In this document: one piece after another, positions 3,621 through 11,738 of the stretch
How positions within the stretch are numbered: the first letter of the stretch is position 1
How the letters are laid out: each line of letters starts with the position of its first letter
From: Heterostelium album PN500
Taxonomy: Eukaryota > Evosea > Eumycetozoa > Acytosteliales > Acytosteliaceae
DNA: 64,000 nt
Assembly: GCF_000004825.1 (NCBI RefSeq)
Contig: NW_008805064.1
Coordinates: forward strand, 248,001 to 312,000
Direction of reading: 5' to 3'
The notes under the pieces: model-generated
The model's input: the letters and a program-made list of their open reading frames with translations, nothing else
What the model was told of the DNA's origin: nothing
The model's database searches: none
Translations under genes and position numbers: made by a program

Positions 3621-3805
3621 ATGATTGGGCTTGCGTCAATTTTGAAAAAAAAAAAATAATAATAAATAAATTGACAAAAAAAAAAAAAATTCAAAAGAAT
3701 AAATTTATTTACAAACTTAGATAAAAAGAATAATTTTTATTATATGTTTAGTGATTTTGTTGAACATAAAGTTATAAATAGTTTGTTTCAATTCTTTGAG
3801 TTTGA
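3621..3805 (+). repeat. Left terminal inverted repeat
   Basis: Left arm of the 840-bp element. It matches the reverse complement of 4276-4460, including the stretch with ACAAACTT, ATATGTTTAGTGATTTTG and AGTTATAAATAGTTTG. The main differences are poly-A length and a few substitutions. Confidence 0.75.
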
Positions 3806-4275
3806 ATTTTTTGAAAACAAACATAAAATTGACTTGCAAGAGGAGTCACATCGAGGGATGCCATCGACTGAAGAGGGATTTCAATGAATCCAGCAACGGT
3901 GGAAAAGCCTGATCTCACCCTTTTCACAGCACTTCCAAGAGATTGTGATATGGAGGATGGTTTCGAAAAATACACGCAACATGCTGCATCTCGTATCCAC
4001 CTCGACAGGTGGACGGTACCACTGGCGAATGCCAGAACCAAATATTCATTTGTCTCAAATTCAGACGGTTCGAGAATAGCAAATGATTCGAAAACTTCGG
4101 CTGCTGGCTCTTGGATTTGGTTCTCTTCTAATTCCTCTTCAGTATTTCCATAATCATTGAATGAGATCCAATATGTAAGGGGGATCTCTCTCTTTCGTAG
4201 AGAAAACCATCGTTAGAAGCTCCACAGTATCCATGGGTGATTGAAAACCACACTGATTGGATGATGGAACGGCAA

Positions 4276-4460
4276 TCACTAAATAAAGAATTGAAACAAA
4301 CTATTTATAACTTGATGTTCAACAAAATCACTAAACATATAATATAAATTATTCTTTTTATTCAAGTTTGTAAATAAATTTATTCTTTTGAATTTTTTTT
4401 TTTTTTTTTTTGCAATTTAGCATTTTTTTTTTTGCTCAAAATTGCCGCAAGCCCAATCAT
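4276..4460 (-). repeat. Right terminal inverted repeat
   Basis: Right arm of the 840-bp element, the inverted copy of 3621-3805. The outermost 15 bases are perfectly complementary to the left end. The next bases differ by GCGG versus GCGT. Confidence 0.75.
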
Positions 4461-4689: not shown

Positions 4690-7600
4690 CTATATTGTGT
4701 AAATATTTGATTGTTGACCAGCAACAAATAGTTGAATTGATTGAAGTGGTTGGTTCAATAGTGGACACACTGCAATCTGACTTGATTCAAATGATGTACA
4801 TATCGAACTCTGACCATTAGATATAAGTTTGATATATGTATCTGTATCGAATGAAATACCATATTCTACTGGAACAAAGTTTGATCCCATGATATAAACA
4901 TTGTTGCTTTGAATATAGTAATTGGTAATAGAAGGTGCCAAATATGAAAAGGTGGTATTCTCGGAAAATTGGATTGTTTGATTTGATACCTGTACAGAGA
5001 TGGAGATGTTTGATCCTATACCTGGAGGAATACTGCATTCGAGGAAATGATCAAAAGAGCTACATTGGATTTCAGTGGAGTTGTTGAGCTTGATTTTAAC
5101 ATTGTCAAAAGTATTGCCGAATCCAGCTCCGTCAATCTCGATGACACCACCGGTTGTACCAATTGGTTGATTATTAAGTTGGTTTATAATTGCAGGGTAA
5201 TAGGAGAAGTCGGTTTGAATAGATTGATCTCCTACCTGGATAACCAATGGCACTGTAGATGTTTCATATTCCAATTGGAATTCAATCATTTCATCTGTGG
5301 AATTGATAATTGGTACCAGTTTATCATCAAAGAATAACAAAGGAAGATCGACAGCATCATCATCATTGGTTCCAAATCCACCAAGAATGAAAACGGTATC
5401 ATTGGGATCGCGAGATTCTGGGGATATACCAATAATTTGAGGACCACTGAAACTGAATGATTGTGAATCGAGAGTATCAATGGTAAAACTAGATGATTGG
5501 TCTCCTACAGTGACTGTTACGGTTTGATGATCTCCCATAGCAGCAGGAGTCAAACATTGGATCGAGTTAACCGACAAGCTAACTATTGGCCAACATTCCA
5601 GTCTTTCATCGATCATAATATTTACTCTTGTAGCATCGGTACCAAAGTTTGAACCGTTTATGGTCATGATATCACCCATACCTCTAATGACTGGTTGGAC
5701 AGCTTGTATCAATGGTGAGTCATACGAGAAAATGAATTTTGAACGTTGAATATCAAAGATAGTATCATCATCTGATATTAAAATTTCATTTCTCTTTCCT
5801 ACACCATTTGGAACATGACAAACAATAATCTTGGAAGATACAATTTCTGTGGAATCACACTGGTTTTCACCAATAGAAACTACCATTGATGAATTGAATC
5901 TAATTCCATTAATTGTAATCATATATCCACCGTTGGTCGAGCCTGTCAATTGGTTGACTGATGTGATAATTGGACCGATTCCATTGCACAACGAATCAAA
6001 ATTACCAGATAGGTAATCTGATTCACTTATCATTTGGATGTCACAAAACTGAGAGTTCAATGTAGCTACTATGATTCCAGTTAAATCCAAAGATATAGCA
6101 CCTCTATAACCACTTGGTTTTGGAAGATAGTAAATTTCTAAATCACCATATTGTGATTTACTGTTTGATTTTGATTGGAGTATACTCTCTAACAAATAGG
6201 TGATAGAAACAATAGAGATAGGTGATTGCAATGAAACTCTGGTTCCTGTTGTTCCTACTGATTCATATCTAAGTTCAAGAGGATTTCCAATTTGATCACG
6301 GTTTAGCTCCTCTAAGAATCTGATAGGTTGGTCATGGAATTGTTGTTGAGGATCAACTGTGAGCACTTTAATGGCTTGGCTGGTTTGATCTATGCTTAAC
6401 CACTTTCCAATTGAATTTTCCAACTTTTGTAATTGATAGGTGTTGAACTTGTCTAAACTACTAGAGTTGAATGAAAGAACTTGTTGTAATCCACTCTGGA
6501 GTAGTATTTCATTCTCCAAAATGGTTGATTTGATTACTTGCTGGTTGGATTGTGAAGATAGTTGTGTAGCTACTCTACTGAATTTCGATCTTGGAATTCT
6601 CATCATATTCAAAAAATGATTGTCAAACACTTGATCAACATTATTGGTATTCGGCTGAATTAATTTGTGATTGTTCAAAATATGAATAAAGTTAAGATCA
6701 CTACGATATTGATCTTTCACATAGTAAAATAGGCCATCCAAGTTAGAGATTCGATCATCTTGAGATAAACGAATCATCAGACCAATGAGCTCTTCAACCG
6801 GTATAATATCAAGGATATTAACTTTATCTACTCTTTCTCCTTCTCCATCTGAATATGAATCTGTGCTCATCCAATCCCAAGCTGCTGCTGCACTTCGCTT
6901 CATCAGAATATCGTCATTTGGATTATCTACAATATCACTTTTTAAATAATAAAGATTAGTATACTAATTTCTCTTGTAAGTTAAAAAAAATAGTAATTAC
7001 TCTTCATAAGTTTCAATATTATCAAAATTAGATACAATATTGCTTATACATTGGTCGAATATTGGTTGATTAGTTCCTTTCATATTCTGTTTTAAAGTAA
7101 ATTATTAATAAATCTGAAAGAAATAAAAAATGAAAGATTATTGGTATCAACTTACATTATATAATTTCTTTGAGATTGCTAATATTAAACCATTTGCCCA
7201 GTTTGGTGTATTATCTCCAACGGAATATAAAGTAGTTTGTTCGATTGATTGATAGTAGATATAGTGAATTGTCATTAGATATGCAATCTCTTCTTCACAG
7301 ATGTCTTGAGAGGATCTAATGATAAATGGAGGTAAGAACTTGAAACCTTCCATTTCACCAATCATGAATTGATAAAAGTTGTTTTTGGCATTAGGTAGTT
7401 TCGTCATAAAGTTAGAGGCGAATCGCAAAAGTTTGAAATCCATATTGTTTGGCAAGTCGTAGTTTCTCAAAGACTGTACTTGAGAGTATGGGAAAAAGTA
7501 ATTCACTGGGAAAACAACAGATGGTTTGTCAGCAAACATTTGTATCAAAGTTACTCTAGATGCGTCTTGGGTGCACTCGAAAAGCAGATCAGAATAATCA

Positions 7601-10600
7601 CAGACAGAACCTATGGCTTGATCAAATGCAATGTAGTGGATACTAAGTAGATCGTTGGCAACATAGTCAGTAATATCCAATTGATTGGGATTGATCTGTC
7701 CAGCGTTTGGAATGGATACTTCAACTGTTTCATCGTTGGGTTTAGTGAAGGTCTTTGAAGTTCTTAGTGATTTCAAGTTTATCACCAAATCTCTATCTGC
7801 ATTGATTGTAGCTGGTAATACACTGAGTGTTTGTGGTGGGAATTTCGATATATATTGGCCTTGAATGTAGTCCTTCACTTCAATCTTGATTTCATTGTTC
7901 CAATCCTTAGGTCTAACTTTAATAGGTTGATCAATAGTATAAAATAAACCAATAGAATTACTTTAATAGATAATAAAAACATGGTTGTAAGTATTTGTTG
8001 AGACGAGAGAATATGATAATATTAAAATCAACATACCTATTCGCTGTTATTCCATTCTTGATTTCGGTATCGTAGCTTCTAACCATTCTGTTGAATTGAT
8101 AAACCAATGTTTGGTGACGGAAGCATAACGCTCCTCCACCACGATAACCTTGTCCATTGTGACGGTTGTTGTCTCCAACACAAAAGAAGTTATCCAGTGA
8201 ATCGGGTGTAGTCACACCATAGTTCGGATAGATTGGGAATCCAAGCTTAGAATGCTCCTTACCGGCTCCTGTTTTTGCACCTGAAAACCTTGCATCCTTG
8301 TATTTCTGATTGTCTTTCAGAGACAAACTCTGAGGGAATTCCATCATTGCAACATTCAAAACTTGCTTGGTTGGCGCGAATGCTGGTACTTCTTGATGGT
8401 ACATCTGAACAAAGTAGGTTTGTTTGAAAAAGTCAGCGATTCTCATCCAAAGATCGATTCCATCCAAGTAGCCTGGCTCCTTTCTCTTTGATATAATATA
8501 GGGCGACAGTGGTTTTTTAAACTTCTCATCTCGCTTAAATAAATGATTTGAAGTTCCAATCTTCATGAAATAGAATGCATCCATTCCACCGATTGAAACT
8601 TTCTTACTATTCCAATAGCAAATTCCCTCTATATCGTACAGATTCTTTATATTATTTTCACAAGTGGTTCGCAGAGTTGCCATCAATGTTGGATTGGTAG
8701 GGTTTTTCAAACTGAAGAGATAAGGGTTGTCTGTTTGAGTGACAGTGTCTGGAATTTCGTTTGGTTCCATTAGGAATCCATGATTTTTGACGATGTACTC
8801 TGCAACTGTTTCAACATTGTCAAATGAATAACAAAAGAAATGTTGACTGTTGGTTGGTAATCCAAGGAATTTAACACCTGCTGCAGGACCATTGAATGCT
8901 GACTTGTCGGTAGTGGTATACGATGGAAACAATGGATTGGAATGTTGAATGTGCAGTCCACTGAAATTGTCGTCAAAAATTACAGAGGATTTCATATGAC
9001 CAAAGACTTCGGTTTTTAACTTATCAATATCGATTCTTACTCCCTTATCATCACGTGTACCTATTTGATCGTTTATAAACATATATTTGTAGTCTGAATA
9101 TTGCTTAAAAGTTGCCTCTATTGGACTGAGTATATTTAAATCAGTGTAAGTTTTTGTGTGTTGAATATAAGGTAATTTCTTTAGAGTGTCTCCAGTTGAA
9201 TCGATATACAAATAGGATTGATCATTTGATTCCTCCAATTTTATAGATGAACCACCAATCTACAGGACTGTTTGTGTTGTCTTTTTCAGGTGGACCTAGA
9301 CAAGCCAAAGAATTGGAACGGAATGTAACGGCATTGATTGTTTTCACACCTCTGACTGAAACAACAATTGGATAAACTCCTGGCTCGATCTTCAAAATGG
9401 TACATCTAATCTTGGTATCACTCTCCAAAATTAAAACATTTGTACACAATCTGTTGGCACCGTCCTGAACAGCAATCGATATATCATCTTTGTTATTTCC
9501 AAAACCAGTTCCAGTAAGTGTAACGAAGTGAACTCTCCTCATCTTTGAACCTTGACTTGGAGTGATGGAAATGAGAGAAGGACCGCTATAACTAATTAAA
9601 TAGCCCTGAGGTTTGTAAGTATGTTTCACTTGGAAACTATCTAGTGAGACCAAGCTGATTGGATAATCACCTGGAATGTTTGGTGGGATGATACAATTGA
9701 TTTTACCGTCATCCTTTGTACACTTGTCAGCAGCAATCATTTGTTCACCAAGCCAAACTGAATTGATAAACTGAAGATTCGATCCTAGTATCTCGAAATT
9801 ACCTCCACCTTCTGGATTTAAGGAATCCGGTTGATTCAATGTGCCAAAAGTTGAATCGAGATATTGGAATGTTTTAGTTGTTTGGTAGTCAATTCCCTTG
9901 ATAGATACGAAAATTGGAACGGTTTCAGCTGATTGAATGTCATTTGGTTGCACAGCACATTGAAATTCTTTTGTCTCTAGATCGATCGATAGAACTTTAC
10001 AATAGGTATTCTTAACCTTGAATTTAACAATTTCGAATATATCGTCATATTCCATAACGGGTAGTTGCGAAATGGTAATAGTTACAATTGTTTCTGAGTA
10101 AACATAACCAAAATCTGGAGTTACAGAGACAATTACTGGATTGGCAACGGTAAGAGTTAGAGATGCTGAAGGTGAACCACCACTACCAGACAATACGGTT
10201 ACATCTGAACTTCCAACAGTAGCATACGGTTGTGAAGAGTCATAGGTAATCAATAAAGAATTGTCAGAAACCTTGTAGATGTCATCTACAATCAAACCAT
10301 TGATATAAACTTCATCCTTATCAGAGAAAAGCAAACCGTTCAATTGTAGCTCCCATATTCCCAGTCTGAATATGTAGTTTGGTGAGATTGAATTGAGAAC
10401 TGGACCGTCTTTGAATGTGATGGGATCGATAATATCATTAGAAAAACTAAGACCGTTTACAACAACTGCTACGGGATACTCGCCAGCTGGCTGTTTCTTA
10501 GAGAGTGGCTCCAGCGTACACACTATCTTGATTTCGGATTTCTTCAGAATATTACATTTGGTCATTCCAACCATAACATGTGATGCTTCTCCCAAGTTAC

Positions 10601-11738
10601 TACCTCTAACGGTTATTTTATCATCAACATCATTTCTTACAAACTCTGGAGATGTTTCATCAATAAAAGGTTCTAAAATGTAATTTTTAAAATAGAACAA
10701 TTAGTAAATGTATATACTAATAAATCAATAACCAAAACTTACTATAGATTGTATAAATTAAATTATTAAAATTCACATTTCCAATATTTGCCAAGATTTC
10801 AAGTTGAGTTTCACCCTTTGGGATATCATAACGCAACTGGCATTGGCATACAATTTGGTTTAGTGTCCGACTCACAACAATACATGATCGACTGTCTAGA
10901 AAGAAATCATAATTTGTATTCTCAATGAAGTTGGCTCCATCGAATATAAGTTGATGTACTGGCAATGATGAGAGTGCTCTAGCTGGATTGTAACCAGTGA
11001 TAATGGGCTGTGGATAGTATTTAAATGTAATGGAATGCATTACATTAACACCGCTATACATTGAAATAGATAGTGGACAATATTCGATAATTCCAACCAC
11101 CTGATTGGGAATGGTACATTTAATGACAGTATCTGTAAAACTAACAATGGCAAGAGCTGTCTGACATAGATAAACAGTTGGTGGACTAGGATCTTGGAAA
11201 TCAACATTACCAACATTTATCATAAAGTTTTGTCCATTAATAGTAAGAGTTTCTAAATTCTGAGCATACGATTGTTCTGGTGAAATTGAATATATTATTG
11301 GTTCTATTTTGAATTTTTAAATTGGAAAAAAATATAAGTTTTAATATTTAATAATAGAATGAGAGACTGAATTATTATATTATACTTACTGACTAGTTCA
11401 TAATTAATTGAAATACCATTCAATGGGAATACCTTGTTTCCATTGTACGTGATTCTTAAGTAACAATAGGATTGTTGTTTTCGAGGATCGTCAAACTTCC
11501 ATACGTATTTGCTACCTGGTAGTTGTTGATGAACATTGTGTGGGACATTGTTGACATAGAGCGTGAGAAGATTTACATTCGCAAAGTTCTCACCGATGAT
11601 CGTGAACTGATTTTCTCCACGTGCATAACCTTTTAGTGCCGAGTAACTAACAACTCTCTGTGAATTTACTATAGAACCATCTAATATAAATATAAAGAAA
11701 AAAGTAGTTAAAACTAAACAAAAAAAATAATTTTTCAT
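4690..11738 (-). CDS. Secreted IPT/TIG-repeat protein with embedded DNase II domain, frame broken once
   Basis: Exons 11738-11390, 11303-10743, 10672-8037, 7960-7156, 7086-7001 and 6937-4690; all five introns have GTAAGT/GTATGT/GTAATT donors and join in frame. One frame change is needed inside exon 3 near 9236-9242, a run of four A; skipping one base gives about 2,227 residues. A signal peptide (1-26) is followed by about eight IPT/TIG (E-set immunoglobulin-like) repeats (to about residue 765), a DNase II domain (about 770-1165), an unrecognised region (about 1180-1620), and about five more IPT repeats to the C terminus, with no membrane anchor. DNase II evidence: PVDWWFIYK at the start, two HxK motifs (GHMKS at 8998-8990, EHSKLGF at about 8254-8246), CVGDNNRH and RGGGALC. 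DNase II is an acid endonuclease of lysosomes or secretions. In dictyostelids IPT repeats occur in cell-surface and secreted adhesion proteins. Whether the gene is intact depends on the frame change, which could be a sequencing error. Confidence 0.85.

Follow-up and report, generated by a model that had tools for sequence, protein, structure and literature searches.

DNase II is usually a stand-alone protein of about 350 amino acids, and extracellular, Ig-like IPT/TIG repeats are found in dictyostelids in the Tgr proteins of Dictyostelium (TgrB1 and TgrC1), in which, to our knowledge, no DNase II domain is known. The Tgr proteins have a C-terminal transmembrane anchor (PMC12821622; papers given here by PMC number are cited from excerpts), and kin recognition by TIG proteins in D. 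discoideum is the subject of a title cited in PMC4931340. P. pallidum has 110 IPT/TIG proteins (PMC4931340), and D. discoideum casts DNA traps (PMC4937021). DNase II depends on a pair of HxK motifs (Schafer et al., 2007, cited in PMC4148230), and members of the family work independently of metal ions (PMC4148230). A large lineage-specific expansion of DNase II-like genes has been described in Trichinella, where most members lack the catalytic motif (PMC4148230; PMC10249883); the protein cloned there consists of 294 amino acids, and the excerpts make no mention of a fusion with TIG repeats. In dictyostelids, the GO term "deoxyribonuclease II activity" is enriched in, and shared by, the expansions of several species (PMC8535579). 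Thus, a dictyostelid DNase II expansion as such is already in print; TIG fusion, loss of HxK and fast change of the domain are not mentioned in the excerpts of that paper. Here, we describe a dictyostelid gene in which, unlike in the usual stand-alone enzyme, the DNase II domain forms part of a larger product, encoded by about 2,230 codons, that also comprises an unnamed segment and TIG arrays, as well as the family to which this gene belongs. In the literature searched, which did not include the genome paper or the protein-family databases, we did not meet the TIG-DNase II fusion, the division into putatively active and dead clades or the pattern of rates described below.

A DNase II domain between TIG repeats

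The window, which is the whole stretch of 64,000 nucleotides analysed, corresponds to C3:248001-312000 of a genome of 32,926,113 bases in 39 contigs. The gene lies on its minus strand, as do all the parts given below in window coordinates, and runs from an ATG at 11738 to a stop at 4690 (11738..4690) in six exons, which are separated by five GT-AG introns of 86, 70, 76, 69 and 63 nt in order. Exon 1 (11390..11738) encodes a hydrophobic N-terminus resembling a signal peptide, as judged by eye rather than by a prediction program and for this gene alone, and a weak TIG repeat that scores 13.9 bits against a Pfam cut-off of 20.9. Two TIG repeats are encoded by exon 2 (10743..11303), and further TIG repeats followed by the DNase II domain by exon 3 (8037..10672). 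An unnamed segment of about 600 amino acids follows: its first half is in exon 4 (7156..7960), the short exon 5 (7001..7086) lies within it, and its second half is in exon 6 (4690..6937), which continues with TIG repeats up to the stop. Unlike the Tgr proteins, the product has no transmembrane segment in its last exon, where no 19-residue stretch exceeds a mean hydropathy of 1.9. The order of parts is therefore signal-peptide-like start, TIG repeats, DNase II domain, unnamed segment and TIG repeats, and the reading frames together with Pfam bear out the coordinates, strand and order that a first-pass annotation, made from the letters of the window, had given.

When the exons were searched with both profiles, TIG (PF01833) scored 54.2, 104.7 and 110.2 bits in exons 2, 3 and 6, respectively (E-values 1.5e-14, 2.5e-30 and 5e-32; cut-off 20.9 bits), so that the repeats annotated on both sides of the DNase II domain are recovered, and DNase_II (PF03265) scored 86.6 bits in 7961-9259 (E 2.3e-24; cut-off 23). 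The numbers of eight and five repeats first proposed would include weak ones: Pfam delimits 2 + 4 stretches ahead of the DNase II domain and three behind it, with one below the cut-off in exon 1. Within exon 3, the DNase II domain runs from its conserved Cys up to the exon end (8037..9302); it contains the first HxK motif (HxK1) as GHMK, the second (HxK2) as EHSK, and GDNNRHNGQGYRGGGALC. The two HxK motifs and the RGGGALC claimed earlier are thus present, as GHMKSS, EHSKLG and RGGGALC, and both HxK motifs align with those of the canonical copy of the genome and of paralogues. With DNase II as represented by PF03265 and the structure 5i3e, the domain shares the profile, the two HxK motifs, an HS-P motif and the GD.N/RGGG motifs; unlike the canonical copy, it has extra stretches in its middle. 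Chance resemblance is ruled out, because the Pfam E-values are low and the same order of parts is repeated in many paralogues. In the window the gene is accompanied by genes for an alpha-kinase/WD40 protein, a lipase-maturation factor and a UBR1-like protein. Just downstream of it lies a foldback element (window 3621-4460) with 149-nt arms that are 91% complementary and 487 nt apart, and with an outer arm pair of 36 nt; a DNA search, which skips simple repeats, found no second copy of this element in the genome.

The exon set is not as consistent as it was first taken to be, since a one-base frame break in an A-rich stretch of exon 3 (9222..9259), where the DNase II domain starts, separates the TIG frame from the DNase II frame. 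The TIG frame continues for 25 codons beyond the conserved Cys, across the first DNase II strands, and reads through CLGPPEKDNTNSPVDWWFIYK before its stop at 9222, and the remainder of the domain sits in another frame that is open from 9259. An intron across the break can be rejected because the two frames would both be needed within about 40 bases, too short an overlap in a gene whose introns measure 63-86 nt. A programmed frameshift is disfavoured by the paralogues: in the same clade (clade A, see below), the 21 other genes for which letters are available (20 plus C3:997k) are all open from a VDWW-like to a YLY-like motif. Since the paralogues are open at this place, an assembly error or a recent mutation is the likely cause. 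Roche 454 sequencing errs in homopolymer-type runs. The break is A-rich and the P. pallidum genome was read with dideoxy and Roche 454 methods (PMC5282741), so that a homopolymer sequencing error would explain it most simply, a recent mutation being an alternative. If the break is real, the protein would end after the first DNase II strands and the window copy would be a young pseudogene; the copy might indeed be dead, given the break, and C12:1022k, another clade A copy, has a frame slip as well. This is nevertheless somewhat unlikely in our view, as the coding sequence on either side of the break, about 786 codons ahead of it and 1,447 behind it, is open across GT-AG splice sites, and the A-rich site and the sequencing methods, if the genome is that of P. 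pallidum, also speak against it.

The family and its unnamed segment

Is the fusion a single oddity, as it first appeared? A search of the genome with PF03265 gave 65 matches, which reduce to 48 loci, some of them fragments, when same-strand matches less than 3 kb apart are joined, and the window gene is instead one of a family with these 48 DNase II loci, fragments included. At least 35 of the 48 have a TIG match on the same strand within 8 kb; this is a lower bound because the TIG list covers 150 scored matches of 729 candidates, and C35:133k, for example, has a TIG-like match at 14 bits in a separate scan that is absent from the list. Conversely, 131 of these 150 scored TIG matches (of 729 candidates) have a DNase II locus no more than 8 kb away. 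The 13 loci without a listed TIG match are C3:2986732, five on C27, two on C15 and one each on C3 (474680), C9, C10, C23 and C35, among which those on C9 and C10 contain internal stops and C23 is a short contig. C3:2986732 (L009) is a stand-alone DNase II that scores 344.5 bits and has both HxK motifs in a frame of 360 amino acids. The five C27 loci (317429, 345964, 350698, 356422 and 362119) are small C-terminal DNase II matches, covering approximately positions 225-309 of the profile, with no listed TIG match nearby.

The fusion of TIG repeats with DNase II is real, because paralogues hold both domains above the cut-offs in single uninterrupted frames that require no joining of exons. One frame of 616 amino acids (L037) scores 63.9 bits for TIG and 71.5 for DNase_II, and another of 596 amino acids (L033) 89 and 81.9 bits, respectively; in a third (L042) DNase_II reaches 60.3 bits and TIG, at 14.2, stays under the cut-off. 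The locus C10:814527-827834 (L020) encodes 4,436 amino acids without a stop, in the order TIG repeats, DNase II domain and further TIG repeats, and two pieces of this frame contain 30 and 6 TIG stretches, with DNase_II at 124.4 bits in the second. This gene is one of several giants (clade B), three of which (L020, L018 and L017) have long Ser/Thr-rich C-terminal stretches after the last TIG repeat, like glycosylated stalks. On C12, giants (1006k, 1031k and 1063k) on one strand alternate with clade A genes (1022k and 1054k) on the other, as if they had been duplicated together.

The unnamed segment also recurs. The exon 4 stretch has 19 other matches in the genome, down to an E-value of 7e-5, and by their coordinates 18 of them directly follow DNase II loci of clade A, with two belonging to a single gene; the remaining one, C15:524820, has TIG matches in its neighbourhood and no PF03265 match. 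No exon 4 match was found at four clade A genes (C17, C35, C3:442k and C6:383k). The segment hits no Pfam family above the cut-off and no relative in the PDB (best E 0.75), and the predicted structure of this segment from a paralogue, with a mean pLDDT of 38, is too poor to use. In the giants, a segment of about 550 amino acids occupies the same place; its C-terminal end and that of the clade A segment are alike by eye, and homology between the two is unsupported by hhalign (probability 0.1%). Since the segment is without a known relative, a further function that it carries may have been overlooked.

Catalytic motifs and rates of change

Catalytic motifs were surveyed in 35 of the 48 loci, namely 22 clade A genes, eight giants, four short members and the canonical copy. 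HxK1 is present in all 22 clade A genes, although in C12:1022k its frame is shifted relative to the upstream part, and HxK2 in all 21 that have that stretch, C12:1022k not being among them; in some clade A genes HxK2 sits in a short exon and is visible only by three-frame translation. The slip in C12:1022k (C12:1022000-1022810, L016) occurs in an A-rich stretch just ahead of HxK1 and represents either a sequence error or decay. None of the eight giants has either HxK motif, a call that was made for five by alignment to the canonical copy, where LGKG and D.S[YH] stand at the HxK places, and for three by motif search and reading. By motif search, HxK1 and HxK2 are likewise absent from all four short members (C15:499k, C3:17k, C6:218k and C3:2647k), in three of which the only H-x-K is part of a GIHxKH[ST] motif elsewhere in the domain. 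In a tree calculated from the N-terminal halves of the DNase II domains of 33 of the 35 rows (without C3:997k and C3:2647k), clade A, including the window gene, forms one side of a branch with support of 97/94, and the giants group together with support of 98/96. The four groups of letters read as short members are represented here by three, which are placed next to the giants with long branches and weaker support, and joins of this kind may be false. A single loss of HxK on the side of the giants and short members would be the simplest reading. The clade A domain profile matches the solved bacterial DNase II 5i3e at an E-value of 1.9e-8 with HxK1 aligned, and the window DNase II piece alone at 0.0087; the AlphaFold model of the window DNase II part (mean pLDDT 41) is too poor to check the active site. 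Pattern searches for clade A relatives gave 105 matches in prokaryote genomes and 29 in viral contigs, none of which was confirmed.

Rates of change were compared between the DNase II and the adjacent TIG parts of three recent clade A pairs, picked as the closest available; the compared parts include some codons at frame ends that are possibly intronic, which can distort the rates. Nonsynonymous differences per site in the DNase II and TIG parts were 0.036 versus 0.007 in C28/C9 (p 0.001), 0.053 versus 0.019 in C25a/C25b (p 0.001) and 0.085 versus 0.007 in C3/C23 (p 2e-8), whereas for the synonymous rates no difference between the two parts appeared in two pairs (p 1 and p 0.23, respectively) and a slight one in the third (p 0.04). 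Pooled over the three pairs, pN/pS was 1.16 for DNase II, given without a test against 1, and 0.50 for TIG; the contrast in N:S between the two parts had a pooled p of 0.015 and single-pair values of 0.03, 0.30 and 0.22. A further pair, C28/C14, which is not independent of C28/C9, gave pN/pS of 0.94 versus 0.16 (N:S p 0.07). The older clade A pair C3:442k/C17 gave 0.36 and 0.38, the fast change of DNase II being absent. In two pairs of giants it is the DNase II-like part that is better conserved, with nonsynonymous values of 0.012 versus 0.062 and 0.006 versus 0.028; in the first of them its synonymous rate is also lower (p 8e-9), as gene conversion would give. Thus, a fast-changing DNase II domain was observed only between recent copies that bear HxK. 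The fast change fits some arms race, and also a relaxed constraint. The HxK motifs are unchanged in these same recent pairs, and this speaks for a kept function.

Possible roles of the fusion proteins

The best reading, which we hold with some confidence from the sequences, is that the family consists of probably secreted acid DNases bound to a surface or matrix, together with dead paralogues reused as binding modules. The clade A proteins would exit the cell via the secretory route, and their TIG arms would attach them to the cell surface, to matrix or to bacteria. There, their DNase II domain would cut DNA, probably that of bacteria eaten as food or invading, or else matrix DNA, through the HxK pseudodimer mechanism known from DNase II, which needs no metal. 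In the giants without HxK, the fold would probably serve as a binding module. The first-pass annotation had already suggested an extracellular nuclease with adhesive or matrix-binding arms; uses in self/non-self contact or against bacteria, which it also raised, are conceivable. The TIG arrays on both sides, the last exon without a transmembrane segment and the motifs kept in clade A agree with the suggestion of such a nuclease, and the notion of a lone fusion has to be given up.

DNase II is classically lysosomal, and dictyostelids feed on bacteria; the proteins could therefore be digestive enzymes that act in the acid phagosome on engulfed bacterial DNA, in which case the TIG repeats would be stable spacers and not extracellular adhesion arms. 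A DNase II of Trichinella works best in slightly acidic conditions, which would suit such a role, as would the metal independence of the family (PMC4148230). However, a stand-alone DNase II with both HxK motifs (C3:2986732) is already present, and tens of copies with long TIG arrays as well as dead giants are not obviously needed for digestion, so we consider a purely digestive role unlikely. It is quite unlikely, too, that the DNase II fold is mainly a module for binding or recognition even in clade A, where HxK would serve to bind DNA or another ligand rather than to cut. The absence of both HxK motifs from all eight giants and all four short members with letters, and a pN/pS near 1 in the domain of recent clade A copies, would be expected of such a module, and among the approximately 125 DNase II-like genes of Trichinella one tested member is inactive (PMC10249883); yet clade A keeps both HxK motifs although the rest of its domain changes fast. 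Least probable, and only a faint prospect, is a diversifying system of recognition and nuclease in which TIG arms dock on cells or bacteria, the active clade A domain is the fast-changing part that faces an opponent and the giants without HxK are decoys, receptors or inhibitors. Candidates for such an opponent are an inhibitor, a target surface or a rival strain.

The family links two features that have been described separately, namely the expanded DNase II genes of dictyostelids (PMC8535579) and the abundance of IPT/TIG proteins (PMC4931340). It also offers a test bed, in organisms that eat bacteria, for studying how an extracellular multidomain protein takes up an enzyme and, along another branch, perhaps turns it into a dead binding module.
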